Shown here: positions 5,775 to 63,826 of the stretch, piece after piece
How the letters are laid out: the number at the start of each line of letters is the position of its first letter
How positions within the stretch are numbered: position 1 is the first letter of the stretch
Assembly: GCA_033439255.1 (NCBI GenBank)
Contig: CM065883.1
Location: 2,418,001-2,482,000 of the forward strand
DNA length: 64,000 nucleotides
Source: Hericium rajendrae
Lineage: Eukaryota; Basidiomycota; Agaricomycetes; Russulales; Hericiaceae
Direction: 5' to 3'
Made by a program: the position numbers and the translations under genes
Notes under the pieces: model-generated
Told to the model about the DNA's origin: nothing
Databases searched by the model: none
Seen by the model: the letters and a program-made list of their open reading frames with translations, nothing else

Positions 5775-5826
5775 GGCTACCGTGGTTTCCAATTGACCAA
5801 TTCATACCCATCCACGCACTTCAACA

Positions 5827-42773: not shown

Positions 42774-42846
42774 CATCTCAAAAATGTGAAATCTACATAG
42801 CTGCCAGCCAATGCTATGTCTGGTTTCATAGTGCTATGGCTACTAT
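42774..42846. repeat. Outer transposon, left terminal region before the Gypsy insertion
   Basis: Continues at 49,952-50,215 after the Gypsy element. The combined sequence matches the inverted right end of the inner element (55,380-55,712), including 'CAGCCAATGCTATG' and 'GTTGGGCCACACATCTATAC'. Confidence 0.85.
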
Positions 42847-43269
42847 TGTCACGGATCGCTCCATTCCTCTCTGCCTTCTTCTCTGCCATCAAGGCATCGC
42901 GTCGGTCATGTGCTCCAGCAGCCCCATCACATGTTCACTTCCTCACATGACCTGGGGCTATCCTTCACCCATGCCCTTGTTCCCCTTTGGGACATCCTAT
43001 TGTTCTTCCTACCATTGTTCTCCTTTTGGCCACCATTGTTCTCACTCTATTGTTCGACCCGTTATGGTGTCCATTGTTCTTTTCCCATTGTCGTCCCAGT
43101 ATTTATAGGCTCCCTGTCGCTCGCCTATTTCCCTAGATTGTCCATTTTGTCTGTACCGTACTGTACCTCCAATACAGGTCACTGCGCTGCTAGTCGCTCT
43201 CTGCTCTCTCGCTCCCATCATCGCTGGTGACTTGGGTAGTTCTCTGCTGTCTACGACCGAGTCTTGACA
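42847..43269 (+). repeat. Gypsy left LTR
   Basis: 423 bases, nearly identical to 49,524-49,946. Contains a TATA-like TATTTATAGG near 43,097. Confidence 0.95.
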
Positions 43270-44388
43270 CCTGGACAATCTCTCATACACCCGCCTCACC
43301 TCCCTACTATCGCCCATCATACCTTTTTTCTTTGAACCCTTCACCGCCGACATCTTCACCGAATCTCGACATCCATTCCATCAACCTCATCTCCCCTTTC
43401 CCATCGCCAACACCATCGAGGGCAGTGCACTCATCCCCCTCCTCCGCTATTGTGCTGTGAAGCATTGGGAAGCTGAAGGAGTTTGGTTTCGATTGAGGTC
43501 GTGGAAACCACGTGCAGGTGCTATCTCCATTGCCTTATACGTTCGAATTCGAGTTTCCTTTGACGTCGACTTGCAAGAATTCATGTTCGGTGCCTCGGAC
43601 ATCGCTTACCACTGTTGCCAACCCAACCGAGGATCCCCTGCAAGTATCCTACCATCGACCTTGTTCCCCTTTTGTACACTAGGTCTCTTCACCCCCGAAC
43701 CCTCGCCTGAGCCTGTGTGGGCCAGAGAACGCCTCGGCCACCGATTCCTCAGAACCCCGTACTCGGACCCCCTGTACCCTCGTGCTCTTGGTCGTCGCCC
43801 AGTCACGGCTGACTTCCTCTAGACCTCACCATTGATCCCACCGACCCCCGTTTCCAGACCACAGAACCATACCCACTTGGCGTCTTTGCCTCGCTCGACG
43901 AATACTTCATCTACACCCTTTCTGGCATCGTTTGAATAGACTTCGTCACTCTGGACGAGGATGATGACAGTCCCGCACAGTGGTACTTCGCTGATCGTGA
44001 CGACCAGGCAGACCTCGAGCTTAATGACTTCGACGTCGCAGCCACAGAACACCGCCGCCAACACCCTGCTACCCCACCGCTTCCCACCGTCACCCTTCTT
44101 AGGGCAGATTCTCCCCCTGCTCGCACCACACCACTTGTTGTTCCCCCAGGTATTACCTTCAACCCGGTAACCAACAACTACTATGCATACTGCTCCGACA
44201 CCAATCGGCTTGTAGTCAGTTGGAGACCCAGCCTTGTAGAAGAAAGTGACCTGTGGTTTTGGCAGGCCAGTACCCTCTTCTTAACCACTGCAGAACTTGC
44301 ACTCTCTCAGGCAGTTATAGAGAATCTCGCTCAGCAACAAGCTACCCGCCTCGATACCCTTCGGGCCCCACTACCACCACCTGTTTCG

Positions 44389-45498
44389 ATGCCTACCCCA
44401 GTACCAGTCCCCTCACCTGCTCCACCCGTTGCCGCTGTTGCATCGACATCCACCGTCAACATCAAACCAATCATCACCACAGCTCCCCCTGTTCAGCTGC
44501 CCGACGACATGTCCAACCCCGAGATTGGCGTCAAACCTGCTCCCTTTGAGGGAGATCATTCCAAGTCCAAGGAGTTCCAGTTGCGTATTCGCTTATTCCT
44601 TTGTGCCAACTCTGTCCGGTATAAAGATGATACCGCCCAGATCTCCCTCTTCCTCGACCTCTGCCAGGGCCCTATCGCCGGCCAGTGGGCCACCCAGCGT
44701 GTCAAGGAGATCCTTGAGGATGACGATCTCGTGGCTGCAAACACATCTCCAGCTCATGTCCCTTGCTACGCCAACCTCGCTGCCCTTTGAACTCGCTTCA
44801 ATTTGGACTTCTCCCCCCTTGATGACTCCAAGGATGCCTCCCATGCCATCCAGACCCTCCAGATGGGTACGCGCCCGGTAGTCGACTACATCACTGAGTT
44901 CGAGTCCTTCGCTCCTCGCACCGGCTACAACGATGTGGCCCTGATCGATTGGTTCCTGCATGGCCTCAACAGCACCCTGCGGGATGATTGCCAGCGCAGC
45001 TACCCCACGCCCACCACCCTGGCTGAGTGGAAGGCGAGGGCCCGTGACAGGAATGCTGCCTATCTCATGCGCACCCGGTTCCAGAGTCCCCGCCCTACAA
45101 CTGGGCGCACCCCGGTGAGCACTCGCTCCCCTCAGTCTACATCTACTGGCCGATCCTGCACAGTTGCTGCTACAGGTGCCCCACTGCCCAAACTCTCGGA
45201 GCCTGACCGTGAGCGCCTCAGGCATGAGGGCGGTTGCTTCCGCTGCCACCAGAAGGGCCATGGCTTCCGCGACTGCCCCCTCAATGCCGACTCCAACCCC
45301 CGTGCCCCAATCCCTCGTGTCCGAGCGCTAGAAACCGGCTCTGCCCCGGGAGTAGCTCCAGAAGATGCAGCCGCCGCCCTCGCTGTCCCCGCCATTAACA
45401 GGTCCATCGCCGACTTATCGTCGCAGTTGAAGGACTTGAACGAGGAAGAGAGGGAAGAGGCAAAGGCTGCATTAAAGGATATGGTTGAGGGTTTTTAA
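44389..45498 (+). other. Gypsy gag-like region
   Basis: Encodes the capsid-like portion and a zinc knuckle, CFRCHQKGHGFRDC, near 45,240. Family: Ty3/Gypsy gag. Treated as part of a fossil element. Confidence 0.8.
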
Positions 45499-46300
45499 AG
45501 CGCCCCCGGTCACGTCGTCCGTGGGTGGCAAGAAACATTTCTTTGATCCGTCGAATCACTTCTCTGTACTATCCGACCCCTGTGAGCAATCGTATCCATC
45601 GTCTTTGCGCATGTCTGCTATCACGCCCAACCGTCAGACACCGTCCATTACGCTCCAGGCCAAGATTATCACTGCCCCGATCAAGAAACAAATCGACGCT
45701 GAGGCACTTCTCGATAGTGGTGCAGAAGGCATCATTATGCACCCCGAGTTTGCCAAGAAACACCAGTTCCCCCTCAAGAAACTCCCTAAACCCTTTCCCG
45801 TTCGCAATGTGGACAACTCCGAAAACATCATGGGCTGGGTTCGCTATTCAGTCAACCAGAACATCCGCATTTATGCCAAGGACTCGACGTCCTTCCATGA
45901 GGAGACAGCTGAGTTCTATCTCGTTGACATTGGCGACTACGACATCATCCTTGGGACCGATTGGTTACAGGAGCACAACCCTGAAATTGATTGGGTCTCT
46001 CGTCGTGTCGACATGACTCGCTGCCCTCCCTCTTGCACTCTGAATAAACCCCCGGTCAAGAACCTGTCCACTCGCACTGAACGCCGCCAGTCAGCCCCTC
46101 GTCCATCAGTCCTCAGTGCTGCTGCAGTACTGCTCCCCCCACCTTGCCCCCCTCCATTGCTCCCACTGCCCCCACCATTTGTTGCTGCTCCACTTCCCAA
46201 ATACGTGATCCCTGCTCGCCGAGTCCAAGGTGTCCGCCTTCGCTGCATCCACCTGTCCAAAGTCCCTGCATGCCTCTTCACCGAGGACGATGACCCCTGA
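45485..46300 (+). other. Gypsy protease region
   Basis: A retroviral-type aspartic protease fold is suggested by LLDSGAEGIIMHPEFA and YDIILGTDWLQEHNP. Lies between gag and the polymerase region. Confidence 0.8.
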
Positions 46301-46456
46301 CCTAATGTCGATGATGACTGGGTTGAAGAGGGCCTTCGCCTAGCTGGTGTCCTCCCTGACTGGGACACACCACCCCCACCAGACGACAACCCCGACTACC
46401 AACACACCATCCGTATCCGTCGCTCTTTCACCAATGCTCAGAAACTGGCTGAGCGT

Positions 46457-49400
46457 GTGGCCACTCGTGTTGCAGAGAAGTCCTTTGCCGAGATGGTTCC
46501 CCCTCAGTATCAGGATTTCCAACCTGTTTTTGACGAGGAATCCTCTCATCACCTCCTCGAACGTCGCCCTTGGGATCACACCATTGACCTGAAAGATGGT
46601 TTTGAACCCCGCTCCTGCAAAGTCTATCCCATGGCTCCTACTGAGCAGGAGGACCTCGATTCATTCCTTGATGACCAGGTCAAGAAAGGCTACATCCGTC
46701 CTTCCAAATCCCCTATGGCGAGTCCCTTCTTCTTTATCAAGAAAAAAGATGGAAAACTACGCCCCGTCCAGGACTATCGCACCCTCAACAAAGGCACCAT
46801 CAAGAATGAATATCCCCTGCCCCTCATCTCTGAACTCGTTGACAAGCTCAAGGGTGCCAAAGTCTTCTCCAAGATGGATGTTCGTTGGGGTTACAACAAC
46901 GTTCGCATCAAGGAGGGCGACGAATGGAAAGCCGCCTTCAAAACCAACCGCGGTCTCTTTGAACCCCTGGTGATGTTTTTTGGTCTTACCAACTCCCCTG
47001 CCACGTTCCAAGGAATGATGAATGAACTTTTCAAGGATCTCATCGACACGGGCAAAGTCGTCATCTACATGGACGATATCCTCATTTTCACCGAAACCCT
47101 CGAAGAACATCGCGACCTTGTGCGCAAGGTCCTCCAACGCCTCCAGGGCAATGACCTCTTCCTCAAACCAGAGAAGTGCTCCTTTGAGCAGCCCTCAGTT
47201 GAGTTCCTCGGTCTCATCGTCTCCCATAACATGCTCGCCATGGACCCCGTCAAGGTTGCAGGCATTGCTGAATGGCCTGCCCCTCATAACGTCAAGGACG
47301 TCCAGTCCTTTGTTGGCTTTGGCAACTTCTATCGACGCTTTATCCAGGACTTCTCCAAAGTCGCTCATCCCATGTTCGACCTTACCAAGAAAGACCATCC
47401 TTGGGCCTGGTCTGCTGAATGTCAACATGCCTTTGAGGCTCTTAAAGCTGCGTTCACCTCGTCCCCAGTCCTTATCATGCCTGACCCGTCCAAACCCTAC
47501 CTGGTTGAGGTCGATGCCTCAGACTATGCCACAGGAGGTATCCTATCCCAGCGCGGGGAGGACGAGCAATGGCACCCTGTTGCTTACATCTCCAAGGCCT
47601 TCACTGCTCCTGAATGCAACTATGACATCTATGACAAGGAACTCCTGGCCATCATCCGTGCCCTCGAAGCCTGGTGCCACTACCTGGAAGGTTCTCCCCA
47701 TACTGTGGAGATCTGGACCGACCATAAGAACCTGGAATACTTCAAGTCTGCCCAAAAGCTGAGTCGTCATCAAGCTCGCTGGGCTCTCTTCCTCACTCGT
47801 TTCGACTTCACCCTAATCCACAAACCCGGTATTCATCACCGGCCAGATGCCATGTCGAGACGACCTGACCATAGAGAGGGGGTGGATGACGACAACTCTG
47901 ATCGTGTCCTCCTCGACCCCAAGTACTTCCAGATCCGTGCTACACGTCCAGCCGCTGTCAAGTCCATTGGCAACGCTGATCTTCGCCAACGCATTCGCAA
48001 TGCCAAGACCAAGGACATTGAGGTTGTTCAAGCCCTTGATGTGATCCTGAACAATGGTCCTCGCTCCCTCGTCAAGAACCTCCAAGAATGGAACTACGAG
48101 GATGGCCTCATCCTCTTTCGTGGCAAAGTCTACATCCCTGCTGACAAGGACCTTCGTCGGGACATCGTCAAGCTGCATCATGACACCCCCATGGCTGGTC
48201 ACCCAGGACGCTACAAGACCTATGAGCTCCTCAGTCGCAACTACTGGTGGCCCGGTATGTCTGTCTTCATTCATGATTATGTTGATGGCTGTGCTACCTG
48301 CCAGGCCACCAAGGTTCAAAATCACCGCCCTCATGTTGAAACAATTCCCAATGCCATCCCCACCCGTCCCTTCCAAGACATTACCTCGGACTTCATCGTC
48401 AAACTCCCAGAATGCCAAGGCTATGACTCCATCAATGTGGTTGTCGACCATTTTACAAAGCACGTCTCCTTCACTCCTTGTAAAGAGACCATTACCAGTG
48501 ATGGCACAGTCGACATCCTTTTTGACAGGATTTATCGGAACTATGGCCTCTGGGAACGTCTCATCTCTGATCGTGGCCCACAGTATGCAGGCAAAGTCAT
48601 GCGTGGCATCTTTGACAAACTTGGTATCAAGTCCTCCCTCAGCACTGCCTATCATCCACAGACCGACGGCAAGTCAGAACACATCAATCAAGAACTCGAG
48701 CAGTTCCTTCGTACCTTCTGCAACTACCGTCAGGATGATTGGGTCCAATGGCTCCCTTACGCTGAGTTCTCGCACAACCACCGTATCCACAGCGCCACTA
48801 ACCGAGCTCCATTTGAAATGCTCCTCGGCTATATTCCCACTGCCATCCCCACTGTCAACCCCACATCGTCTACACCCGCCGTCGAGGATTGTTTCCGTCA
48901 CCTCGAACAACTTCGTACTGAGGTCCAGGCCAGCCTTCAAACAGCTGCTGATCTCATGAAGCGCAACAACCAGGACCATATGCACGACACCATCCACTTC
49001 CAGGTTGGTGACAAGGTCTGGCTCGATGGCAAGAACATCAAAACCACACGACCCAAAGCTAAGCTTGCTGATCGACGCCTGGGACCTTTCGAAATCACTG
49101 ACGTCCTGGGCCCAGTCTCTTATCGACTGAAGCTACCGCCCACCTGGCGTATCCACCCGGTGTTCCACACGTCCCTGTTGTCCCCTTACAAGGAAACCGA
49201 TGCTCATGGTCCCAACTTCCCTGCACCACCACCTGACCTTGTGGAGGGCGAGGAAGAGTACGAAGTTGAGTCTGTCCTCGATGCTCGTCTCACCCGGAAC
49301 AAATGCGGCATTGAATATCTCGTCAAATGGGCAGGCTACCCTGATTCGGAAAATCAGTGGCTTTCACGTACCTCCCTTTCCAATGCCCATGGTGCAATCA

Positions 49401-49523
49401 CCGACTTCTACACCCACCATCCGCATGCACTCAAGGCTCCCAATCTTCGTGGACTCATCTATCTCGACCCCGTCCATGCTCATCACGCACTCCAGGCAAA
49501 AGTGCATCTTAGAGAGGGGGTGA
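46457..49523 (+). other. Gypsy polymerase region: RT, RNase H, integrase, chromodomain
   Basis: Motifs in order: RPVQDYRTLNKGTIKNEYPLP and VVIYMDDILIFT (reverse transcriptase, YMDD), VEVDASDYATGGILSQ (RNase H), LHHDTPMAGHPGRYKT and CATCQATK (integrase zinc finger), DHFTKHVSFTPC and STAYHPQTDGKSEHINQELE (integrase core), and VESVLDARLTRNKCGIEYLV with KWAGYPDSENQW (chromodomain). The chromodomain places it among chromoviruses. Confidence 0.9.
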
Positions 49524-49946
49524 TGTCACGGATCGCTCCATTCCTCTCTGCCTTCTTCTCTGCTATCAAGGCATTGCATCGGTCATGTGCTCCAGCAGCC
49601 CCATCACATGTTCACTTCCTCACATGACCTGGGGCTATCCTTCACCCATGCCCTTGTTCCCCTTTGGGACATCCTATTGTTCTTCCTACCATTGTTCTCC
49701 TTTTGGCCACCATTGTTCTCACTCTATTGTTCGACCCGTTATGGTGTCCATTGTTCTTTTCCCATTGTCGTCCCAGTATTTATAGGCTCCCTGTCGCTCG
49801 CCTATTTCCCTAGATTGTCCATTTCGTCTGTACCATACTGTACCTCCAATACAGGTCACTGCGCTGCTAGTCGCTCTCTGCTCTCTCGCTCCCATCATCG
49901 CTGGTGACTTGGGTGGTTCTCTGCTGTTTACGACCGAGTCTTGACA
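49524..49946 (+). repeat. Gypsy right LTR
   Basis: 423 bases, preceded by a purine tract AGAGAGGGGG at 49,511-49,520 and followed by ACTAT. Confidence 0.95.
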
Positions 49947-49951
49947 ACTAT

Positions 49952-50215
49952 GTAGTTGGGCCACACATCTATACAGGACTATGGTAGCTATCATAGCTAT
50001 CATAGTCATAGGTGATGGGTATATAGTATTACATAGTAACAGGACACTACTATGCCTACTATGTAACTTATGTATTCTCTGTCTACCTCTATGTATCCTA
50101 TAGAGACTATGTTCCATACAGAGCTTCTAAAGGTTACTATGGACCCTCAGGCTGCTATAATGTAGTCAGTGTAGAGTCTATGATTTCGAGCAAAGTATAC
50201 TCGAAACAGGTCAAA
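49952..50215. repeat. Outer transposon, left subterminal repeats (continued)
   Basis: Repeats of CTATCATAG and related words, for example TAGCTATCATAGCTATCATAG near 49,990. Matches the inverse of 55,380-55,650. Confidence 0.85.
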
Positions 50216-50820
50216 TTTGATTATATTTAATTACTACTACAAACAAGTATACTACATGACACGTGCGCCCGCGGGGTGCAACAAAGCATGCACCACACAA
50301 AGGCGCAGCTGGTGTGCGTGACGCTGCGTGCGAGACGCGTCGGCCACGTGCGAAGCTCAGGGCCCGTTGTCACGCTGGATTGTGTTATCAGCCTAGATGA
50401 GCTGGGTTATGGTCTTTCCCAAGTACACCTAGTGGTTCAATGGGAGGATATAGCTTTCTGATTTTGCGCTTGTCGCACACTTAATCAGATATATCTATAT
50501 ATATTCCTGAATTGTTCAGGACAGGCGGTCTGACAGTCTGACAGTCTTTGTTTGCACTTATTTAATGCAAAGGTGAATAGCGTGTATTCGAAGGGAAACT
50601 TTCTTCCCTATTTCTGGCTCTTTATATACTAGAGGAAATGAGGCTGTACACGAATGACCAATCGACTAAAAACTCGGTTTGTAAGAAAAGGAACATATTA
50701 CTAAACTCCAACCAGGCGACTCAGCGAATAACTGCATGAATCAGCAGAAAACTGAACGACTCAGTGTATTTGAAGAGGATGAATAAGCAAAAGGTAAATC
50801 TGTAATCGAACTAGGACGAC
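50216..50820. other. Outer transposon interior, no gene seen
   Basis: Mixed composition. Short repeats: GTCTGACA twice near 50,530 and GAATGAATAAGCAAA near 50,835. A GGTTCAAT word near 50,433 recalls a polymerase III B box, but no A box or tRNA fold goes with it. Confidence 0.4.
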
Positions 50821-52918
50821 TCAGCAAATCTTCTTTGAATGAATAAGCAAATGTAAGCCCTTATGAATAAGCACTTTTCCAAACTGGGCTATCTTTCCCA
50901 TTAAGCTTGCCTGCCTCGGATCCTCGCCCATCCCTCCAGATTGACGTAGTACCTTGATTCGCGGTTCAGGATCTGAGCTGCTTTGATTCCTTCCATCCTC
51001 TTGACGTAGGAGAAGAATGCGGTGGTCTGCGGCAGTGGGATCGATGAATTGTGATGAGGAGGGAAGTAGGTGTGGATGTGATTGTACGGGTTGAACCGAC
51101 CGAGTATGTCCATCTTCCCATACCCCTTCCAGGCGATGAGGCATGATGCGAGTAACGACGGCGTGATGCTCCAGATGCGGGGAACAAAGACGAACAGATG
51201 GTTTCCTTCCCACCTGAGCCCGTTGATACGCCTCAAGCTGTGTTCAGCAATGTTAGACCTCATCTCACCATCTTCCATGCAGTTCCCCTTCACTTCCATC
51301 CAGCTTCCAGCTCCTCACCCACCAACCTCGCTCAGAGCGGTGATGTCCCTCATCTCAGGAGTTGTCAGCTACTGCAGGCCTCACCAAGGTTTCCTCAAGT
51401 TCGCTCCAGGTCGTCCTCAGCGGTTTTGGTGAGCCAATCAGGTTGCTGGCATTATGGTACCGGGTCTGTGTTGTACAGGATGCCTGGATGCCGCCTTTTG
51501 ATGGTTTCGGACCATAGATGTACCATAGAGCAGCTGAGTCCGAGATCGCCCGAGACCGCCAAGGGCGAGTTTCTTACTTGTATGGTAGACAGAGTCCCAG
51601 CTTCGAATAGAACCCCCCAGTGCACCTTTCCCCCTCAGAGCTCAGACCTCAGAAGTCTCTCTCACTGTTGTTCTCATCATTCTCCAGACTTTAGACAAGT
51701 CCGCCCTCTTTAGGCCAGTCCGCCCGCAGCATCGTTCGTCAGATTCAGTCATATCAGCCGCTTTTCAGTCCTTTTCTCTAGGATTAGTCCGTCGTATCGG
51801 AGACCCGTGTGTCTCATCGTTCTCCTTGTCATTCTACAGCCGTTCCTCATCCTTCCCAGCCGCTTATCACCAGATCGCCTCAGACTCGCCCTTAGTGAAC
51901 TGGTCGCTCCATTGTTCCTGCTGCAGTGACCCTCAGCTGCCCTCACCTCACTCCTCACTTGAGATACTTGGTCCCCTCGCACCCCCCGTACTCTGTTGGT
52001 TTTGGTTTTGGCTGCTGCCTCCATTCCCAGGGTCCACACATCACCGTGCATATTGATGATCTCAGGGACTCGTCTGACCTTGAACTGCATCCAGCTAGAT
52101 CCTGCACTGACCAACTCCTCCACTATCCCTGATACGCAATATCCCTCTTCTCCACTCATTATTACCAATCTCTCTCCCACGGCTATGTCACGTGTTGGAC
52201 GGACGACACAGACCCATGGATTGTTCACATTTTCTTCGATTAGATCTGCAGAGGCGAAAATGAATGGGAGGTTGTGAGGAGCGCTGATGGAGTAGAATGA
52301 ACCCAAGGGGCACTCCTTACATATGAGGCTTGCGCTTGGCTTGCCCGGCTGGGTGGGAATTATGATTTGATCCGTCAGGACATAGTCTGGAATGAGAAAG
52401 CGGACGAGCTGATCAGGATGTAGGATACAAGAAAATGGTGGATTAGGTGGCTGATATATAGGGGGAGGTGTTTCAAGATGCATTCGGTCTTCTACCGGAT
52501 CGTATTGCAGAGAGAAGCGTGGACCAAGAAGGGAGATGTTTTCCACGGTTGTGTGGGTTTGACGCTCGACGTGAACTAAGAGCTGATCTTCAGGCTGAGG
52601 GGATCTGCTGTGAGAGCGACGACGGAGAAAGAACATTGTGGTTACAGGGAAAGATTGGTGTCTCGGTTCGTCAGGGAAGTCCTTTAGCTGTTCTTGGCTC
52701 AAAATCCCCATCACACGTAAAGGTGTGCTTAACCGAGATCTTCTTCTGTTACTGTGGCGTATGCTTCGATTGCCGTTACTTTGCCCAGTCTGGACCGATT
52801 CAATTGGTGGCTGAGGCATATGCAACGCTGCATGCACATTCCAATATCTCTTCCGGACGACTCTCATCTTACTACTACTTGGGCTATGGATGTTGCCAAT
52901 CCTCTGTTCAATTTTCAA
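50821..52918 (-). pseudogene. Degenerate coding region, possibly KOW-domain protein
   Basis: Two open stretches on the minus strand, 52,918-51,749 and 51,299-50,821, are in different frames. Visible segments: VGERLVIMSGEEGYCVSGIVEEL and GWARIRGRQASLMGKIAQFGKV have the spacing of KOW-like motifs (as in Spt5), and HLFVFVPRIWSITPSLLASC precedes the latter. Both are only suggestive. The region lies within the outer transposon and may be a carried gene or part of its coding content. Function not assigned. Confidence 0.35.
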
Positions 52919-54167
52919 GTGCAGATCCTTTTGGCTTGAATATACACTGAGATTTCATCTGAAAAACTTACAAGTGGTACATAGCTCTATAAAGTCTACA
53001 TAGATTTCATAGTTCCATAGCACTGCCCTTTTCTCTGTAGCCCACATAGCTAAAGAGAGATGCTATATAGTACTATGGAGCTTAAGGGTGATGCTATGGA
53101 GTGCTATCATAGCTATGAGAGCTGACTATGCAGCTATGATAGTATGGCTAGCTATAAGAGCTATAAGTATCTATCAAAGCTATGAGACTTATGTCACTTG
53201 CATATCCTATATTCATTATATAACCCTAAGATATCTATTGAAGCAATAAAGCCTACTGAAACTATCAATCTTGACTAAATTTACATAACAATGTCTAGAT
53301 AAAACAATCATACAAATATAAACTTTGTTTAAAACATCAAAATTAAATTTATGTTGTAACACTACTTTAAAACAAAGATACTACTACTAATTACAACAAA
53401 TAAAAATATTATACTTACTACTAAAATATAAAGACAAGATAAGTATACTAGACTTACAAAGACTACAAAAAGCGAAAATATAATCTACAAAGTAGAAGAT
53501 TAATTAGTAACAAAACAACAGTAACAAGATATAAAGACATACCAAAAAAATTATTAAAAAAAAGAATATATAACCTAAAACATGAATAACATAAGCATAG
53601 AACAGCCGACATAAAGATGAATGACTTACCGAAGGTTGAGGAAGGAGGTTTGAGGTACCGAGGAAAGTCGGGAGCATGTGGTGGTTAAAGAGAGAGAGAG
53701 AACGCGCGTCGTGCGAGGGTTATATAGGTGAGCGCGGGTTTGCCCGGCGGAGTCCCAAACGTGGCTGCTGGGCGCTGCCGGGAGTCGTGGCTGGGGGCTA
53801 AGTGGCAGACTTCATTAAGTGGCCATTGTTACCCAGTAGCGTACGATACGATATATACTTACTGAGCTCATTTGGTGTACTGTAATAGATAGTCGCCGGT
53901 CTCTGTCTTTTATTCGAATTAAATAGCATTTTATTTGATTTACTACGCATGAGACAGTTTGAGCTCGCGCGTTCGGTGGCTAATGCATCGAAGTCGCGTC
54001 GTTCGACTTCGACTTCGTCTCCACCACGTCCGTTTTCTCCCTATTCTCTGCTCATCTCTCTCCTTCCTCGTTCCTCCTCAAGTCGAAGGTCGGAAGGGCT
54101 TGTTAGGAGTTGGAAAGGCATGAGGTAAGTAAAAAATATCATCTATTGTGAGTTCTGTACTCATCTC

Positions 54168-54199
54168 GAGGGTACCGCTCGTTATCGAGCGGTACTCTC
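54168..54199. repeat. Palindrome module, copy 1
   Basis: Arms GAGGGTACCGCTCG and CGAGCGGTACTCTC around TTAT, one mismatch in 14. GTAAGT lies 43 bases before it (54,125). A run of seven T follows. Lies in the inner TIR element, plus orientation. Confidence 0.9.
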
Positions 54200-54209
54200 A
54201 TTTTTTTCG

Positions 54210-55350
54210 TTGGTTCTCTATTCCCTGCGGCGTCCGACCGTCTTCGACACCCCGCTGCTCGCCTCGCGCACGTCCGCCTGTCCACATCACACACCCCTTC
54301 GACAACTCCCGCTCCCGCCTACGGCACTCTGTCTGCCAACACACAGCCCGTCGCCCCGACAAGCCATCGCTCATGGCGACTTCGCCTGCCTGTGTGCACG
54401 ACCACCATGCTCCGCCTCCCCACGCCTGCCCACGCCTGCCCGTGCACACGGCCCCGGACAACAGCGCCAGCACACGGCCTTGCCGGCCTGTGCCAACGGA
54501 TGGTGCCACATGCTCGCACTCGTGCTTGCAGACCAGCGCACAGCGGGCGTACGTTGGTACACAACCCCGCCTGCGACGCACGTATGGCCGCGCACGACAG
54601 CGCCAGCACAAGGTCGTGCATGCCTGTACGCACCCACGCGCACGGGCCTATCAACACAGGCTGCTCGCTTACCCACGCAAGCCCCCCTCCCCACATACGT
54701 TCCCGCATGCCAGCGCCAGCATACGGCCACGAGTGCCTGCGTACACGTGCACGCTGCGCAGCTCAGTCGGCCTCGCGTGAATCCAACGATATGCACATGG
54801 CCGCAGCTCGCGCATGAGCCAAGCAACCCGCTCGCGACCCGCACGCCTCGCGCATGGTCCCCGCAGCGTATGCACGCCCGCCAATGCATGGTCGCGATTG
54901 CTGCCCACCCCGCACGCCCCCGACTACATGTGCACGCCACGGACTGCACGCGCACGGCGACACATGCCACGGCCAGCGCACGCATGTCCGCGCCTGTCCT
55001 CGTCAGCATGCGTCTGCCTACGCCGTGCCTTCGCATGTGCCAGATTGTGCAGGCATGCCACAAGCTACGCGCGCACGGGTCGTTCGGCCTCAAGCACATG
55101 CACGGCACCCAGCGCCCTCACCCCTGCGATGTTATGCATCATCGCGATGCCACCTCTCCCGCGCCACGCACTCAGCATGCCGTATCTGATGCGACTCACG
55201 CCGCGCGCATCGCGTATAGGGCAGACACCTGTAACGTGACCGCCATCGTTTCAGCTTGCGTGCGCGCATGTCAGCGACAGTGTGCACGAGTCCAGGATGA
55301 TGAGGATCTCACGCGGGCCAGTTCATGCCACTTTGTATGCTATGTATTGT
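54210..55350. repeat. GC-rich quasi-repetitive tract of inner element
   Basis: Rich in alternating words such as GCGCACGC, GTGCATGC and CAGCGCCAGCAC in imperfect repetition. Open frames of over 130 codons exist on both strands at once, which points to stop-poor composition and not to a gene. I do not call a protein. Confidence 0.7.
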
Positions 55351-55712
55351 AGTAGTCGAGTCTAATGTATACCTTCTTGCTGTAATACATTATAGTGCTC
55401 AAAATATAGACTCTATAACCACTATACCTTGTATAGCAGCCTGAGATTCCATAGCAGCGTTATGAAGCTATATAACAAACATAGTACTCATAGCATGCAT
55501 AGAGGGAAACTAGAAATATATAAGTTACATAGCAGGCATAGTACTGTGCTATTACTATGTAGTGCTACATAGCTATCACCCATAGCTATGATAGCTATGA
55601 TAGCTCTCATAGTTCAGTATAGATGTGTGGCCCAACTAGATAGCAACCATAGCACTATGAAAGCAACCATAGCATTGGCTGAGAGCTATGTAGATTTCAC
55701 ATTTTTCTGATG

Positions 55713-56110
55713 TTCTGACATGCTTGTCCCCTGCTAGAACGGCCAGTGGGTCTATTTTTGGGACTCGACGGGTAAAATAATTCATGGCAAGGTTCGGTCG
55801 ACTGCCATCCAAAGCGATGCAAGTCTCCTTTTTCTCCGATGATTTTCTATTCATGATGCTTACCCTTCAATCCTCCTCTTTAGGGCACCCAAATTGTCCG
55901 GTTGAGGCTAGCTGGAACACGTAACTTTGTCAACTTTCCGTGAGTCATAGTATCATAAAATATTGAGGTCTATGTTTAATTTCTTTCTTTTCTTTTTTAG
56001 TGCTGACCTAATGAATGCCAATCCGAACCCGCCTTCAGCTATTCAGGAGTCAGCCATCTTTATGAGATACTGGATTAAGCAGGCAAATGAGAGCAGGGTA
56101 GATTTTTAGA
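55713..56110 (+). other. Outer transposon interior with short coding-like stretch
   Basis: Near 55,738 the plus strand reads NGQWVYFWDSTGKIIHGKV, and near 56,010 NANPNPPSAIQESAIFMRYW. These look like real protein but end quickly in stops. They may be remnants of a carried gene; family not recognised. Confidence 0.35.
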
Positions 56111-56129
56111 GAAAGTCCATGATCGAGTT

Positions 56130-57130
56130 TACAAACCCTTTGTGAACGCGACACCGTGCGCAAGAGCGTGGACTGCGCGCGGGAAACGTGGAGGCCCGGG
56201 GCCTGTGCGCGACGTGCCGGACTGTCGCGGGCTCACACAGGCCGTAGGGTATGTGCACGAGATGCGGATGCCCATGCGTGGGGGTGCCACGCTGCCACAG
56301 GCTCATACGCGAGGCACGGGGAATGTGCATAAGGGCGGCAGGCGGCGGGCCCATGCGTGAGGCGCGAGGGACGTGCAAGGGCCACGGCGGGCGTGCACGA
56401 GGTGCGGATGGTGTGCACGAGACGGTGCCGATGCTGAGTGCGTGCGTGGTGTGTTGAGGGGCATGAGCGAGACGTGGCGGGCATGCGCAAGGCCCGGGAC
56501 CTGTGCGTAAGTGGTTGAGATGCCGGGCCCGTGCGCGAGATAGAGGAGCTGGGACGCGGCGCGGAGGCCATGCGCAATGCAGCAGCCTTGCGCACCGGAG
56601 TGTGACGCGAGCTGGCGACGTCGATACGCTGCCGCGGGCCCGTGCACGGTGCGGTAAGCCTGCGCGTGAGGCGCACTAGCCGCATGCTGGATGGTGACGT
56701 GGAGTACGACGTGCGGAGCCCGCGTGCGAGGCGTCGGCTGCGACATGATTGCGCACGGCTGTGGATGATGTGCGCCCGTGCTTGCCCGTCCTGCTGGCCG
56801 TGCACACGGACCACGGCGGGGTTGCGTGCAACGCGTCGGCCCCTGCGCGAGACGGGGAGGCCGCGCACAAGGTGGCTGGCCCATGTGCCAGGCAGCAATT
56901 CAGGACACGGGACGGCGAGGTCGTGCGAGAGGGGCGAAGCCCATGCACGAGGCAGCGGGCCCGCGTACGCGTTGTCCGGTGGTGTGCACGCACCAGCGCA
57001 CGTGGTCGCGGTCGTTGGAGATGGTGCATCAGCCTCTGCGGTGGTAGCGGCGATGTCAGGGGGTGGGTCGATGATGTGGAGACGGCAGCGGGAGGCGAGA
57101 GGAACGGAGGGGCACGCGAAGGGGAAGATG
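56130..57130. repeat. GC-rich quasi-repetitive tract of outer element
   Basis: The minus-strand equivalent of 54,210-55,350: GCGTGCACGAG-like words repeated, open on both strands. Same position relative to the palindrome as in the inner element, in inverse orientation. Confidence 0.65.
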
Positions 57131-57132
57131 TC

Positions 57133-57162
57133 GAGAGTATCGCTCGAATGAGCGATACTCTC
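57133..57162. repeat. Palindrome module, copy 2
   Basis: Perfect 13-base arms GAGAGTATCGCTC and GAGCGATACTCTC around GAAT. On the minus strand GTAAGT (57,206-57,201) lies 44 bases before it. Lies in the outer TIR element. Confidence 0.9.
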
Positions 57163-57859
57163 TGCGTTAGCAAAAACAAACGAAAGAAGGTAATTTTCTT
57201 ACTTACCTTGAACCCCTCTACATGCTACTTATCCCCCGCGGCTTTCGTTTTGAAGGGAGACAGAGGGGAGGGATGAAGGAAAGAGGGTGACTGGAGGAGT
57301 GGCCAGGGTGGTTGAGGAAGACAGTCGAGACGAACTTCGACGCGCGGTTCAGTGCTTCAGCCACCAAACGAGTCGAAGCTTTAGATTTCGAGCCTTCACT
57401 CAGCTAATAAAATCATATAAATTCAAATAAAAAGGGAACAACTATCTATTGTACATACAATCAAAACTAGTCAGACTTCGAGCCATTTACTATACGTTGC
57501 ATCCTTGCGTAGCAAAATCTACTTAGTTAAGTCTGGCGCCAGTCTCTGACGCGATGCTCGGCAAGCGTCAAATCCTGGCTCCGCCCGAGCTTCGTATATA
57601 AGGCTCGCGTGACGCGCGTTACCTCTTGCTCCTAACCCCCACTGTCTCCTGCCACATCGATGCCTTCGTCGACGTCCTTTGCTCACTCGTCGTCGTTTCT
57701 TACTCGCTCGTCGTTGTCTCTTACTCGTTGAGCATCGTTTCTTGCTCGTTGTTGCTGTCTTTAAGGTAATCTTTTATTGTTAGTCTCTTATTGCTCATAC
57801 TAATACTGATGTCTTTAAGTTTGTCTTTTAGATTTTGCTTTTTGTTACTTTGGTAAGTT

Positions 57860-58060
57860 TTTATGTGTTATCTTTATCTTCTAAGACTAATGTTTTCTTA
57901 TCTTTTCTTACTTATATAGTTTCTTATATTCTTTTCTTTATCTTATCTTACTCACTTATCTTATCTTATCTTACTCATTCATCTTATCTTATCTTACTCA
58001 TTCATCTTATCTTACTCACTTATCTTATCTTATCTTACTTTTTTTTAAAAATATATTTGT
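57860..58060. repeat. A+T-rich tract with CTTATCTTATCTTACTCATT repeats
   Basis: A simple tandem array of TTATCTTATCTTACTCA-like units between about 57,940 and 58,040, inside the outer element. The inner element's matching position (53,400-53,600) is also A+T-rich but not so regular. Confidence 0.75.
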
Positions 58061-58259
58061 TTTGCTCTTTAGTTAGTAGTAGTGTTTATAATATTAGTAT
58101 AATCTTGATGCATTGAAATAGTTTATATCTGTGTGATTATATGTCACTAATTCTGATATGATTGTAAAAAGATTTATAGTTCTAATAGACTTTATAATTT
58201 CAATATATATATATCAGGTCTACATATTGAATATAAGATATGTAAGACACATATTGCAT

Positions 58260-58514
58260 ATAGGATATGTAAGATATATAAGCTTTATGGCTTTGATAGA
58301 CACTTATAGCTTTCATAGCTGGTCATACTATCATAGCTACATAGTTAGCTATCATAGCTATCATAGTACTCCATAGCATCACTCTTCAGCTCCATAGCAC
58401 TACATAGCATTCCTCTTTAGCTATGCTGGCTATAGAGAAAAGGGCAGTGCTATGGAACTATGAAATCTATATAGACTTTATAGAGCTATGTACCACTTAC
58501 ACATTTTTCTGATG
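58260..58514. repeat. Outer transposon, right terminal region
   Basis: Repeats of ATAGCTATCATAG and the shared blocks GAAAAGGGCAGTGCTATGGA and TAGAGCTATGTACCACTT, which recur inverted at 52,970-53,220. Confidence 0.85.
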
Positions 58515-58516
58515 CA

Positions 58517-59217
58517 GGCTCATGGGATAAGACAGTTCAAATATGGAAAACAGATACAGGAGAAGCTTTTGGACCATCAATTCAAGGGCATACTGATATA
58601 GTTACATGTGTTGCATTTTCATCTGATGGTCAATATATTGCATCAGGTTCAAAAGATTGGACAATTCGAATTTGGAAGGCTGATACAGGTGCAACTGTGG
58701 GTGAACCACTTCAAGGACACACCATTGATATAACATCAATTGCATTTTCACCAAATGATCAATTTCTTGTGTCTGGCTCACTTCATCAATACATTTGTAT
58801 TTGGCCAATCAATCTCAGTAAGTACCAAGTCATACTCACTTGCAATGAATGACTAAAATAATAATAATTCTAACAACAGACAGATACAAGCCTGAGATAT
58901 CATTCAAACCTAGAACTTCTCAGAGGATTGAGCTTGATACTATTGAAAAGTCAATCTGGAAAGTTATCCGAGAACAAAAAGCAAAGCCATGGGCTCATAT
59001 TGGGTTTCAGGGGTATGCAAAACAATCACAGTCATTTGGCTCATGGATCACTGGTCCAGATTCAGAGCTTCTCATGTGGATTCCACGACATTACCTTCAC
59101 TACCTTCATTGGCCATATGATGCACTGGTCATGGGATGCTATAAAGTTACCCTTGATCTATGCAATTTCGTGCATGGAGAAGACTGGATTAAATGTAACT
59201 CACCTACCCTAGTATAG
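58517..59217 (+). pseudogene. NACHT/WD40 NLR gene, 3' part
   Basis: Starts with GSWDKTVQIWKTDTGEAFG, which joins in frame to YIAS at 42,773 to complete a WD40 repeat. Two more repeats follow (DIVTCVAFSSDGQYIASGS, DITSIAFSPNDQFLVSGS), then an intron at about 58,830-58,880 and a C-terminal domain (WAHIGFQGYAKQ, GPDSELLMWIPRHYLHYLHW, VTLDLCNFVHGEDWIKC) typical of the ends of agaricomycete NWD proteins. The stop is at 59,217. Same A+T-rich character as the 5' part. Confidence 0.9.
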
Positions 59218-59310
59218 AGACCACATAAGGCTTGCAGTTTTGTTTGATCTATTCTCTGTCGATAGAATGTAATCTTATGCTCAACAATTGTGCAAGAAAA
59301 AAAGTGCATG

Positions 59311-59318
59311 CCTACCAT
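59311..59318. repeat. hAT target-site duplication, left
   Basis: CCTACCAT, identical to 63,827-63,834. Confidence 0.92.
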
Positions 59319-59964
59319 TAGGGTTGGACACGAGTCAGAGTCACCCGCAGGTCAGTGCAGGTATACCTGCGAAATATACCCGCAGGTATGCGACCCGCAG
59401 ATCCGGATCACCCGGTGGCTGAGACCCGCGCAGATCCAGGTCAAGACCTTACGAAAATACATAGACCTGCGAGTGACCTGCGAGTAACTCGTAGTATCTC
59501 AGAATTGACTCGGGTGCTGTATTTTCCTTGCATGAATTTCCATTTCAGCATCACTCTGCACCTCCCTCAGTTGACCACTCTGTACCTGATCTCATGTATG
59601 GACCGAAGACTCGATGACGCTCGACTTCGGCACGCTTCGCGCACGTGCCACCATGCTTGCGCTGCTCTCCTCTTCCCTTCACCCTCACGGACATGGAGTG
59701 TCTACACAGAACGCATCGCACGACGCACAGAAGTCCGCCGCGCAGACGCTGTCAATGCTCCGCCACTCGCGCAGCATCTCCGATTGGTCCGAGAGCCTGT
59801 GCGATGGCATGCAGGAAGGCTCTCCGAGTCTTGTCACGGCTTTGGCCATGGATGTCAAAGAAACACCGAGAGCGTGTGCCGCGGGGCATGGAAGCTACGC
59901 CGGCAAGACGAGGGTTTGTAGGTAAGTATTCAAAACATCTATTGCACTTCTTATACTGACTAAC

Positions 59965-59996
59965 GAGAGTATCGCTCGAATTCGAGCGATACTCTC
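59965..59996. repeat. Palindrome module, copy 3
   Basis: A perfect 32-base palindrome: GAGAGTATCGCTCGAA followed by its reverse complement. GTAAGT at 59,922 lies 43 bases before it, as in copy 1. Lies in the hAT element. Confidence 0.92.
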
Positions 59997-60035
59997 GGTT
60001 TTTGTCTCTTTGCTACGGAACCTCGCTGCGCTTTC

Positions 60036-60185
60036 CCATCGCCCGTCGCCATCGCCCATCGCCCATCGCCGTCGCCCATCGCCCGTTGCCGTTGCCGACT
60101 GCCCGTTGCCGTCGCCCATTTTCCATCGCCGTCGCCCATTTCCCATCACTGCCGCACCTCTTCCATCACTGCCGCACCTCTTCCA
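60036..60185 (+). repeat. Minisatellite of CCATCGCCCGTCG-like units
   Basis: About a dozen imperfect repeats of 'CCATCGCC' and 'CCGTTGCC' within the hAT element, just after palindrome copy 3. Ends with two copies of ACTGCCGCACCTCTTCCATC. Confidence 0.85.
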
Positions 60186-60460
60186 TCCCGCCATGTCACT
60201 AGCGCGCCACGCGACGGCGTGCATGACCCCGGACAAACCCATGCGCGTGTCGCCCTCCACTATGCTACAATACCGGCCACCATGCCTGCGCACGACACCG
60301 CACACGTGGAGGCATCACTCTCGAACGTGCCGAATGCCTTGCCCGTTCCTGCCCGTGGATCGCCCAACCCCTCCGCAGAGCGCCACGCATGCACGCACGC
60401 AGACGTGGTACAGCGGCGCAGGGCTTCAACGGCCAGTGCATGCCCTGTCTGCTTACACGG

Positions 60461-60611
60461 TGGAGTGGCCTAAGGGCGAGAGCTATGCCCAAGGTGATGA
60501 CAGTGCAGACGAGGCTACTCTACATGAGGTGAGACTAGCTATGGACATGCTGACTAAGCCTCGGCATCCTCCGAACCTCTGCATGCAGGGAGCCACAGGC
60601 TCCCTAGTCCA
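60461..60611 (-). repeat. Miniature element terminal repeat, downstream copy
   Basis: 151 bases, same as 63,225-63,375. Flanking ACGG at 60,457-60,460. Confidence 0.9.
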
Positions 60612-60657
60612 GGTGCCCCCCTCGAAAAAAGCGACGTCCGCGTCGCTGATGAACAAC

Positions 60658-62928
60658 CTAAGAACCAGAACCATGAACCCAACCTAACCCTCGAAGCACT
60701 CGACCCAACTCCTGAAGACGAGGATCCCCCTGCCAATCAAGAGGTGAAAGCTCCTGCTTCACCGAACTTGGAACCAAAGATGATGAGATAAGGACAGCAG
60801 GACGGTCTGCACGAAGACCGGCAGGATGTCGCCGTGTGATGATGGGCTCGGAAGAGGGAATGAACAGTCGAAGTGGGCATGAAGTACGAGTGGGCCGTGC
60901 TTGAGATCGCCTTGCGCGCCGTTTTAGGGAATCGAATGGCCGCGCGGAGCTAGAACGAAGAATTGAAAAATCACGAGGTGGGGGAGAGATCAACGGAGCA
61001 GGATGAGAAATAGCAGGTAATGAGGCATCATCAGCCCACGAAAATGAAGGTAAAGGAGTATGTGCAGTATTAAAAGAAGCAGGGGAGTCATTATGGGACA
61101 AAGAATGGTTGTTAAGAGACGTGGAAACATTAGAAATGGTTGGAGGCATATGAGAATGAATAATGTTGGGAGTCAAAACTGTATGCGAGTTGGTATCGTG
61201 AGTGGACAAAACACGAAGAAAAGGACTATTAGAAACTTCAGTAGCCATAGCAAGGTCGAGCGTGCTGGAAGCCAGCAGTGTTTGCGACGCGCGATCGACG
61301 CGTGCGGGCCAATCGACATCATCCGTTTGGACGACGGTGACAGCGCATGAGGCACTGCTCACCTCTGCGAACACCTGCTCATGGCCATCCTTCAATTCGG
61401 ACTTCCTTCCTGCATCGAAACCCTCCTGGAAGCCTACGTGCTTCCCCTTCTTCAATCCAGCAGCCTCGCCCCTCGCAATCGCTTTCGCGAGGATCTCGGT
61501 GAGGAGACCGGGTTCGATCTCCTGCACGATCCTGGCGCGGGCAGGCGCAGAGGAGCGTGGCGTGTCAGTCTGCATGCTGGCTTGGACACGGGAATGCGGG
61601 GAGTGCGAGTCGTCGGGTGGAGACAATGGGATTGCGGTTGGGGGTGAGTCTTCGGCTTGAATGCCTGTGCCGATGTACGAGATCGCGCGCGTGGGGATGG
61701 GGTCGTGAGTCTGGACGTGTACGTTGACGCGCGGGGTCGTGAATGGAGTGTTGAGCGGAGGTGAGGACACGAGGGCGTCGGCTTGCACGCCAGCGTGAAT
61801 GCGTGCGATGGGAAAGGGTGCGGCGTCGGCTTGTATGCCAACGTGTAGACGCGGGGACGCGGTGGTCGTGTCGATAGGCGATAGGGGCATGAACGGAGGG
61901 TCGTCCGTTTGGACGTCTGCGTGGGCGCGCGAAGTCGTAGGGGACGTGTCGGCAGGCGGGGAATGTGGAGAGGTCGAGACGTCCGCCTGGACGCTGGCAT
62001 CGACGCTGGAGGGCGTACTCACCTCGGTACGCGCGATTTCGAGACCTTCTTGGTACCCATACCACCTCCCTAGTTCATACCCGTCCTTCCACGCTCGCTC
62101 TCTCTGCTGCTCCTCGACCCTCGCTTCTCTCTTCGTGTGCCTCTTTCCTTCCTCAAACCCTTCTCTCCAGCCTCGCTCTTGGCCCTCCTTCAGGGCCTTC
62201 ACTCGCACCTCACATCGCGCCTCTATTCGCATCGCGTTCTGCGCGTCCTCGATTATGTTATCGAGGAGGTCCTCGTCGATCTCCTCGACGGACATGGCCG
62301 GGCTCGTACGCGGTGCGAGCGATTCGGGTTTGCGGCTGTGGACATTGACGCGGTCGAAGTCGTGCACGGGGCACTGGAAATACGCGTCCGGTGGGCCTGC
62401 GCGATCGAGAGCAGTCGCGAGATCCGCGAGAGCTGCTGCTGCAGGGGCAGATAGGGCGGGAAACGGTGGGCGTAGCGTGGTAGGCGTGGTCTGGTAGGTG
62501 CTGACACGCGTTCGTTGCGCGATGATGTCGATGGTGTCGAACGGGTCGCTGGTGGGCGTAGTCAATGCCGGTGGTGTGTCGCGGGGCTCGGGACACGAGT
62601 CAAGCTCGTGGGCTGCGTGCGTTTGCGGTGTTGCTATGGCAACGGGCTCCTCTGCGTGTGTATCGACGATGGCCGGCTCGCGAACGAGCGTGGTGTCGAT
62701 GGTGGGATACGCGGGGGTTGTTGCACGAGGCGCGCGAGTCGCGTCTGCCTCGTGGCTATCGCGCGGTTGCGGTGGTGCTTTCGCGAGGGGTTCCTCAGCG
62801 TCGCATGCGGTTGTCGTATCGACTGGGGCACTGTGTGCGTCGAGTGGAACTGCGGGGCTCGGGGTAGCAGCTAAGGCTGCTGCTGCTGTTGCTGCAGCTC
62901 GGCGCGCGGCTGAGCGCTTCTTGCCCAT
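60658..62928 (-). CDS. Uncharacterised protein with repeated VQTD-like motifs, carried by the LTR element
   Basis: An uninterrupted frame of 756 codons from ATG 62,928 (MGKKRSAARRAAATAAAALAA); an in-frame start at 63,108 would add 60 residues. The N-terminal third is Pro/Thr/Ala-rich and disordered. Next comes a charged helical part with Gly-spaced repeats (GWREGFEEGKRHTKREARVE, GYELGRWYGYQEGLEIA). Then about nine segments with [V/I/M]Q[T/A][D/E], for example ADVQTDD, VGIQADA, AGVQADA, VHVQTHD, TGIQAED, ASMQTDT, VVQTDD, spaced roughly 20-40 residues apart. A second Gly-spaced helix (GLKKGKHVGFQEGFDAGRK) lies among them. No enzyme domain is recognised. The motif array resembles multivalent dynein light chain (LC8) binding regions; that is inference. 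Confidence 0.6.
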   Translation of the reverse strand: MGKKRSAARRAAATAAAALAATPSPAVPLDAHSAPVDTTTACDAEEPLAKAPPQPRDSHEADATRAPRATTPAYPTIDTTLVREPAIVDTHAEEPVAIATPQTHAAHELDSCPEPRDTPPALTTPTSDPFDTIDIIAQRTRVSTYQTTPTTLRPPFPALSAPAAAALADLATALDRAGPPDAYFQCPVHDFDRVNVHSRKPESLAPRTSPAMSVEEIDEDLLDNIIEDAQNAMRIEARCEVRVKALKEGQERGWREGFEEGKRHTKREARVEEQQRERAWKDGYELGRWYGYQEGLEIARTEVSTPSSVDASVQADVSTSPHSPPADTSPTTSRAHADVQTDDPPFMPLSPIDTTTASPRLHVGIQADAAPFPIARIHAGVQADALVSSPPLNTPFTTPRVNVHVQTHDPIPTRAISYIGTGIQAEDSPPTAIPLSPPDDSHSPHSRVQASMQTDTPRSSAPARARIVQEIEPGLLTEILAKAIARGEAAGLKKGKHVGFQEGFDAGRKSELKDGHEQVFAEVSSASCAVTVVQTDDVDWPARVDRASQTLLASSTLDLAMATEVSNSPFLRVLSTHDTNSHTVLTPNIIHSHMPPTISNVSTSLNNHSLSHNDSPASFNTAHTPLPSFSWADDASLPAISHPAPLISPPPRDFSILRSSSARPFDSLKRRARRSQARPTRTSCPLRLFIPSSEPIITRRHPAGLRADRPAVLISSSLVPSSVKQELSPLDWQGDPRLQELGRVLRGLGWVHGSGS

Positions 62929-63224
62929 ACCGGGTAATCGCGCGAACGGTGTCGAACGCGGGTGCGAGTGTTGAACTACGAGCACGGGGGACACTTGATG
63001 ATGGCCTAGGACACGAGAGACACGGGATGAACACGAGACACGGGGTAGACACAGGAGTGTGTGAGAACACGAGAAACGAGCGCAACACGGGGCGCGAGAA
63101 CGGGACACGAGGCGCGCGAGAGAGACAACGAAAATGATGCGAAAAGGCCAGAAAAAAGCCAGAAAAGCCAGGAGTGACTCAACCCAAAGCTGTGGTGGGT
63201 CGAATCACACTCTCATCACCAAGA

Positions 63225-63375
63225 TGGAGTGGCCTAAGGGCGAGAGCTATGCCCAAGGTGATGACAGTGCAGACGAGGCTACTCTACATGAGGTGAGACT
63301 AGCTATGGACATGCTGACTAAGCCTCGGCATCCTCCGAACCTCTGCATGCAGGGAGCCACAGGCTCCCTAGTCCA
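63225..63375 (-). repeat. Miniature element terminal repeat, upstream copy
   Basis: 151 bases, same as 60,461-60,611. Flanking ACGG at 63,376-63,379. Confidence 0.9.
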
Positions 63376-63826
63376 ACGGACATACGACCTTCTCTCCCAT
63401 GCCTCTCACTATTTATCAGTGCTTTCAACTCACGCGTGCCACCAATATTGCGCCGCCAACGGCATGTCGATGCGTGTTATGACCCCGCATCCACCATGTT
63501 ACACGCGTAGTACCGAGCTGCTTGCGCACAGTCCCTAAGTGCTGTCGAGAGTCCTTGGTACTGCACCAGGCAGTTGGGTGATTATCTATGTAGTCTTACT
63601 TACAATGTAGTAATAAAATAGTATATTTATCATGCTGCAATTACATTGTTGCCTGATTGTTAACAACTGACCTGCGAGTGACCTGCTGCTGTACGAGTAC
63701 CTGACCCGCAAGTCCGAATCACCCGGTGGCTGAAACCCGGACGGATCCAGGTCAGCCCTTGCGCTGGGTGAGAAACCCGCAGGTTCGGATCCGGGTCACC
63801 TGTGAGTGCACTCGTGTCGAACCCTA
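63376..63826. other. Right part of the hAT element
   Basis: Ends in subterminal repeats of the kind CACCCGGTGGCTGA...CCCG and the TIR. No coding region seen. Confidence 0.6.

Follow-up and report, generated by a model that had tools for sequence, protein, structure and literature searches.

A motif-and-palindrome module carried by two kinds of DNA transposon in the fungus Hericium rajendrae

The stretch of DNA analysed in this work (the window) comprises 64,000 nucleotides from Hericium rajendrae (assembly GCA_033439255.1, contig CM065883.1, positions 2,418,001 to 2,482,000 of the forward strand). It contains three copies of a module in which a donor-like motif, AGGTAAGTA, is followed after a short spacer by a palindrome (dyad). 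Copies 1 and 2 are found in two related elements, A and B, of which A is nested in B, and copy 3 is found in a hAT-type element, C. The presence of the same piece in two unrelated kinds of transposon suggests that one of them acquired it from the other by copying. The features that concern the module are as follows.

52956 to 55712, plus strand: element A, 2757 bp, ends CATCTGAAAAAC...CACATTTTTCTGATG, 2-bp flank repeat TT, inserted in element B
42774 to 58514, minus strand: element B including nested insertions, about 5.87 kb once A and a Ty3-type element are subtracted, ends CATCAGAAAAATGTG / CATCTCAAAAATGTG, flank repeat CA
59319 to 63826, plus strand: element C, hAT-type, terminal inverted repeat (TIR) TAGGGTT(G/C)GACACGAGT, exact 8-bp duplication CCTACCAT, 1593 bp without an insert resembling a long terminal repeat (LTR) element
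54123 to 54199, plus strand: module copy 1, in element A, with AGGTAAGTA, a 36-nt spacer with CTCAT before the arm, and one G-T wobble in the dyad
57133 to 57208, minus strand: module copy 2, in element B, with AGGTAAGTA, a 37-nt spacer with CTAAC before the arm, and the dyad at 57133-57162
59920 to 59996, plus strand: module copy 3, in element C, with AGGTAAGTA, a 36-nt spacer with CTGACTAAC before the arm, and the dyad at 59965-59996

A direct reading of the sequence agrees with a preliminary description of this DNA, according to which the three copies share the order of motif, spacer and palindrome. In copy 1 (plus strand), AGGTAAGTA occupies 54123-54131 and the dyad 54168-54199, where it reads GAGGGTACCGCTCG TTAT CGAGCGGTACTCTC. 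The corresponding positions in copy 2 (minus strand) are 57208-57200 and 57162-57133, the dyad being GAGAGTATCGCTC ATTC GAGCGATACTCTC, and those in copy 3 (plus strand) are 59920-59928 and 59965-59996, where the dyad extends to a perfect palindrome of 34 bp (59964-59997). Measured between the first bases of AGGTAAGTA and of the arm, the distance is 45, 46, and 45 in copies 1, 2, and 3, respectively; the conserved spacing claimed earlier is thus upheld, the figure of 43–44 given at that time being counted from the G of GTAAGT.

All three palindromes were confirmed, and the window has no other copies of this kind. The motif AGGTAAGTA occurs five times in the window as against 0.14 expected, and three of these five occurrences belong to the module. 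Perfect dyads (12-bp arms, loop no longer than 8 bases) were observed at two places (copies 2 and 3), compared with none in each of 40 dinucleotide shuffles, and copy 1 falls short of this definition by one mismatch. When one mismatch was allowed, five dyads were found, viz. the three module copies and two that are part of GCTATCATAGC-type repeats (49977-50007 and 55586-55612). An unfiltered scan of the window with a covariance model of the three copies (E ≤ 10) gave nine matches: six that represent each of the three copies on both strands, and three others whose E values of 5.6–8.3 are at the level of chance. A fourth, decayed copy in the window was also sought and rejected. In a scan with the consensus arms, the known copies scored 26, 26, and 23 of 26 and shuffled sequences (20 block shuffles) reached 17–20; among the matches listed (the best 12), the remaining nine overlap the three known copies, and the covariance model likewise found nothing else below E 5.6.

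The assignment of the host elements is based upon their ends and flank repeats, which are in accordance with the earlier guess that one host is CMC-like and the other a hAT element. PlavakaB elements are described as having the termini CATCA..TGATG and target duplications of 2 or 3 bp, and Plavaka is placed with EnSpm/CACTA in the CMCT clade (PMC12730594). Elements A and B resemble them in having ends of the CATC[A/T]...TGATG type and 2-bp flank repeats (CA for B and TT for A). They differ in that one end of each is CATCT instead of CATCA (CATCA is present at two of the four ends and CATCT at the other two), and in that no transposase or TET/JBP domain was detected in the eight open reading frames (ORFs) scanned against Pfam (seven of B and one of A; the short ORFs of 55700-56200 were left out). 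Element B is situated in a WD40 exon, where the empty site would read YSPDGCYIASGSWDKTVQIWKTD, and joining the short flanks restores the WD40 frame. Element C is flanked on both sides by the 8-bp duplication CCTACCAT, and 16 of the 17 positions of its TIR match, with a single mismatch. This TIR begins with TAGGG and is of the hAT type. A related 62-bp stretch is located near each end of C, as would suit a non-autonomous hAT element, whereas the possession of the module sets C apart from such elements. No Pfam family was found in the two ORFs of C that were scanned (59926-60687 and 59322-59921). As the scanned ORFs lack a transposase, we refer to A and B as PlavakaB-like and to C as hAT-type and claim no membership. 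Two further observations pertain to A and B. Their subterminal CTATGATAGCTATGATAG-type repeats form long inverted repeats (52948-53219, 55396-55713, 58251-58522, and 49948-50192). Additionally, at 58500-58517, the end of B at 58514 and its flank repeat read CACATTTTTCTGATGCAG followed by GCTCATGG, which resembles a splice acceptor adjoining the WD40 exon, and the B insertion might be spliced out or fused to this host exon. Two stretches in IMG/VR that matched a peptide pattern from the 401-aa ORF of B were not confirmed as relatives.

Likeness between the copies was compared pairwise in bins positioned relative to the module start, the result in each case being the number of 200 shuffles that reached the observed likeness. 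The alignment of copies 1 and 2 spans 558 columns with 62% identity, starting at about -455 and ending with the dyad, and their common upstream stretch is at least 450 bp long, as befits two members of one element family. For this pair, no shuffle reached the observed likeness in the bins -600 to -300 and -300 to -60. The numbers for these two bins were 16 and 27 for copies 1 and 3, and 28 and 6 for copies 2 and 3, by which copy 3 shows no clear likeness to the other two in this region. Copies 2 and 3 are alike in the bin from -60 to 0 (0 of 200), and their local alignment starts with GCCGCGGGG at -34 and -42. The dyad itself was alike in every one of the three pairs (0 of 200 in each). In the spacer, 2 shuffles reached the likeness of copies 1 and 2, and only 1 that of copies 1 and 3. 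Farther downstream, the numbers for the pairs 1-2, 1-3, and 2-3 were 21, 64, and 53 in the bin +80 to +180; 6, 123, and 13 in the bin +180 to +480; and 0, 9, and 6 in the bin +480 to +1000. Downstream of every copy comes a C-rich tract, in each case on the strand of the module.

54200 to 55340, plus strand: C-rich tract after copy 1, C 40%, G 25%
56140 to 57132, minus strand: C-rich tract after copy 2, C 43%, G 26%
59997 to 60460, plus strand: C-rich tract after copy 3, C 42%, G 23%

The tract of element C scored 133 against that of B and 117 against that of A, compared with 60–106 for 14 control stretches. A wider comparison, made with 60 block shuffles, gave it a score of 139 against B (null 94.8 ± 7.8, maximum 113). 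We read these results as indicating that copy 3 is one captured piece that starts at about -40 and continues onward, with a C-rich tract that may be too diverged to align well. Several of the comparisons speak against this reading: copies 1 and 3 are not alike in the bin -60 to 0 (53 of 200, and 5 of 200 for copies 1 and 2), no likeness is evident between the spacers of copies 2 and 3 (78 of 200), the downstream bins in which copy 3 was compared with the others gave 6–123 of 200, and the score of the C tract against A in the wider comparison (117; null 92.3 ± 9.5) is below the shuffle maximum of 120. Weak likenesses to A were also seen in the right part of element C, which scored 71 and exceeded all 60 shuffles (maximum 65), and in its left part, which scored 85 (null maximum 90).

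The earlier suggestion that the palindrome moves by itself finds no support in these alignments, as the likeness extends upstream for at least 450 bp between copies 1 and 2 and to about -40 between copies 2 and 3. The accompanying suggestion of capture is favoured, albeit in the form of a larger leader piece and not of a freely moving palindrome. Two other accounts of the distribution bear on this point. The palindrome, with or without the donor, could itself be mobile (an introner-like or small palindromic element) and have been inserted separately in each element. Conservation is indeed best in the dyad, the spacers of copies 2 and 3 are not alike, and introner-like elements and symmetrical stwintrons are reported from ascomycete fungi (PMC8469720; PMC9860276). 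However, copies 1 and 2 are at the homologous place of one family, which leaves at most two insertions, the likeness of copies 2 and 3 runs beyond the palindrome as noted, the distance to the donor is fixed and only three copies are present in 64 kb; we consider this the least probable of the accounts discussed here. Alternatively, both families may have captured the module from a third source, e.g., the leader of a host gene. Since no transposase was seen in the scanned ORFs of either element, both could be vehicles of capture, and transposon-mediated gene amplification and transduplication have been reported in fungi (PMC6710886; PMC3538342), whereas within the window no copy of the module was seen outside the elements. 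This account appears very doubtful to us.

The dyad is much better conserved than the spacer that adjoins it. Between copies 2 and 3, the arms are identical in 26 of 26 columns and the spacer in 17 of 39 (Fisher p = 1.9e-4 counting one arm and 4.2e-7 counting both). The corresponding values are 23 of 26 and 21 of 38 for copies 1 and 2 (p = 0.056 and 0.0044), and 23 of 26 and 20 of 37 for copies 1 and 3 (p = 0.049 and 0.0035). As the two arms are not independent, the p values for one arm should be preferred. All 9 of 9 positions of the donor motif are identical among the copies, although this motif helped to define them. Because the dyad is kept far better than the adjoining spacer and the spacing is 45, 46, and 45, a constraint on the dyad and on the spacing is likely.

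The preliminary description also saw a compensatory change in copy 1, and selection on the dyad was proposed from it together with the spacing. One such paired change is present. However, it affects one of the 14 dyad pairs in three sequences, and 159 of 500 shuffles reached the same covariation. Apart from it, the dyad alignment shows a single unpaired cell and a change on one side, from A-U to G-U. In the left arm of copy 1, an A-to-G change lies opposite T, forming a mismatch in DNA but a wobble pair in RNA, and hence the arms of copy 1 are not perfectly complementary. A function of the hairpin cannot be demonstrated from only three copies.

The paired change could have arisen without selection. 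Template switching between arms is reported to be able to make and maintain hairpins and to give rise to compensatory changes (PMC8794818). The dyad could be an old inverted repeat that the elements share through capture and that is devoid of function, with template switching during replication keeping its arms in agreement; the paired change would then be one such correction. The finding of a two-sided change in a single pair, at a level of covariation that shuffles often reach, is compatible with this. However, copying from arm to arm would by itself not keep the letters of copies 2 and 3 identical in the arms while their spacer drifts, since template switching presumably has no power to hold letters constant between families, and the fixed spacing is not accounted for. 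We regard this explanation as unlikely, although it is the most probable of the alternatives. Rather less likely is that the dyad is a binding site at the DNA level (for a host regulator, a silencer or an accessory of transposition) just inside the start region, with GTAAGTA being incidental or a second site. The near-perfect two-fold symmetry and the conserved letters of both arms would suit a dimeric DNA binder as well as they suit an RNA stem. On the other hand, the G-T of copy 1 pairs as a wobble in RNA and breaks the symmetry in DNA, and the donor motif is retained in full at a fixed distance, with the reservation stated above that it served to define the copies. An arm of 13–14 bp is, moreover, long for a dimer site.

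From the elements and their footprints, the shared segment with its rough limits, and the conserved dyad and spacing, all of which are observed, we infer roles as leader, exon and branch site. The explanation that we tentatively prefer, with somewhat less than even confidence, is that a non-autonomous PlavakaB-like family (A and B) has the module within its transcribed leader, and that a piece of this leader was captured by the hAT-type element C. In A and B, transcription would run inward from a start region at a pyrimidine tract, and a short first exon would end at AG/GTAAGTA. The donor would be followed by a branch-site-like CTNAY, the A of which is about 37–41 nt past the donor G, and the hairpin would come directly downstream of this site, either covering the acceptor region or lying shortly before it. 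The hairpin could then control the use of the acceptor of a leader intron, either because it masks AGs in the vicinity or because it brings a later AG closer, which would explain why the donor, the hairpin and their distance are kept while the letters of the spacer drift.

Some of the signals expected of such a leader were observed. A tract with 87% pyrimidine is present at -103 to -44 of copy 1 (54020 to 54079, plus strand; P 0.003 vs random anchors), and one with 85% at the identical offset of copy 2 (57252 to 57311, minus strand; P 0.009). Pyrimidine tracts are typical of fungal start regions, and those of A and B may well mark one. The GT donor motif is present in all three copies, as is a CTNAY within the last 13 bases before the arm (single chances 0.13, 0.12, and 0.18). 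The latter starts 8, 8, and 9 (also 5) bases before the arm, with a joint chance of about 0.003 for a motif that was picked after looking. In the predicted folds, the hairpin appears in all three copies (z -5.9, -4.4, and -4.05), and 0, 1, and 0 of 200 shuffles were as stable. The predicted introns of neighbouring genes, found by pattern, are 50–63 nt long (six cases).

Other observations weigh against a leader intron of this kind. Copy 3 has no pyrimidine tract (best 58%, P 0.72), and CTRAY proper is limited to two of the three copies, being missing in copy 1. No clean acceptor was found at the base of the hairpin or beyond it in the three copies: the candidates at the base (GAG, CAG, and GAG in copies 1–3) would make the intron only about 45–46 nt long, and the first AG beyond the hairpin is 145, 95, and 204 nt further on, which is far for a fungal branch site. 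The TATATA common to A and B adjoins more closely a second, outward leader with a donor-like site, which makes the direction of transcription unsure. Codon bias did not settle the coding strand of element B, and the 2-bp flank repeat TT of element A is weak evidence when taken alone. Hence, of the preliminary view that the hairpin lies in an intron, the donor and the branch-site-like sequence remain in all three copies and a convincing acceptor is wanting, and a leader intron in A and B is at best plausible. With respect to the outward leaders (53600-53735 and 57590-57790), these end in GGTAAGTC (A, minus strand) or AAGGTAATC (B, plus strand), and the TATATA region could possibly be a divergent promoter. 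A bolder form of the leader explanation, in which donor and hairpin form a cassette that unrelated superfamilies in this fungus have retained by selection and passed on for regulated splicing or escape from silencing, the hairpin being a switch on the leader intron, seems quite improbable at present. Should additional copies agree, this would show that transposons of different superfamilies exchange not only host genes but also parts of leaders. It would also provide a compact RNA hairpin, set at a constant distance from a splice donor, whose possible control of transposon expression could be tested. The three copies constitute a good lead and not a result.

The module was also compared with known systems and collections. 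In Pack-TYPE elements and transduplication, known from plants and fungi, a transposon similarly holds a foreign fragment between its own ends (PMC8903248; PMC3538342; PMC6710886), whereas the piece in C appears to derive from the leader of another transposon rather than from a host gene. Symmetrical stwintrons and introner-like elements of fungi are likewise intron-like sequences with inverted repeats, but their inverted repeats are terminal and 45–55 nt long, and the elements proliferate at new gene positions (PMC8469720). In contrast, the present module has a compact hairpin 45–46 nt after the first base of the donor motif, is located inside transposons and is known from three copies. Fungal hairpin loci for small RNAs are stated to lie very rarely within introns (PMC9757828), which bears on a small-RNA reading of the hairpin. 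The word "palindrome" does not occur in the PlavakaB paper (PMC12730594), and no description of a donor-plus-hairpin module was found in the open-access literature searched, to the extent that its texts were available. The arm sequence did not occur in the papers of that literature, and five papers that contain one of five sequence strings deal, by their titles and the beginnings of their abstracts, with Yarrowia transporters and chicken genes and look like unrelated matches of short strings. An Rfam scan of 52900-60700 found no family above its gathering score, the one weak match (55566-55693; 24.2 bits, gathering score 130) being off the module. The dyad pattern matched four stretches from two contigs in IMG/VR and nine loci in prokaryote genomes; GTAAGTA is absent from the surroundings of all 13 (about 100 bases, both strands), the rest of their flanking sequence seems unrelated, and they were rejected as relatives. 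Similarly, the donor-to-arm pattern gave 108 matches at 108 loci in IMG/VR, none with the exact 9-base second arm within 25 bases; as the collections scanned are viral and prokaryotic, the lack of relatives in them says little.

Two nested insertions lie outside the module.

42847 to 49946, plus strand: Ty3/gypsy-type chromodomain retrotransposon, nested in B, flank repeat ACTAT
60461 to 63375, minus strand: LTR-like element, nested in C, 151-bp identical direct repeats

The repeats of the LTR-like element are of the form TG..CA with ACGG on both sides, and it contains one 848-aa ORF on the minus strand, for which no Pfam match above the cutoff was found; the element is perhaps a non-autonomous retrotransposon. 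The proteins of the window, as seen in the Pfam scan, include NACHT, NB-ARC/TPR and the Ty3-type chromodomain retrotransposon, and intron-like interruptions are present. Together with the PlavakaB-like ends, these features point to an agaricomycete. The NB-ARC/TPR and NACHT/WD40 genes (24594-27407, 39394-42773, and 58515-59200) are located in AT-rich islands of mostly about 30–34% GC within surroundings of mostly 50–60% GC. Lastly, a gene of the 3-beta-HSD/epimerase type is duplicated in the window (299-1820 and 5701-7187), the two copies showing 72% DNA identity.

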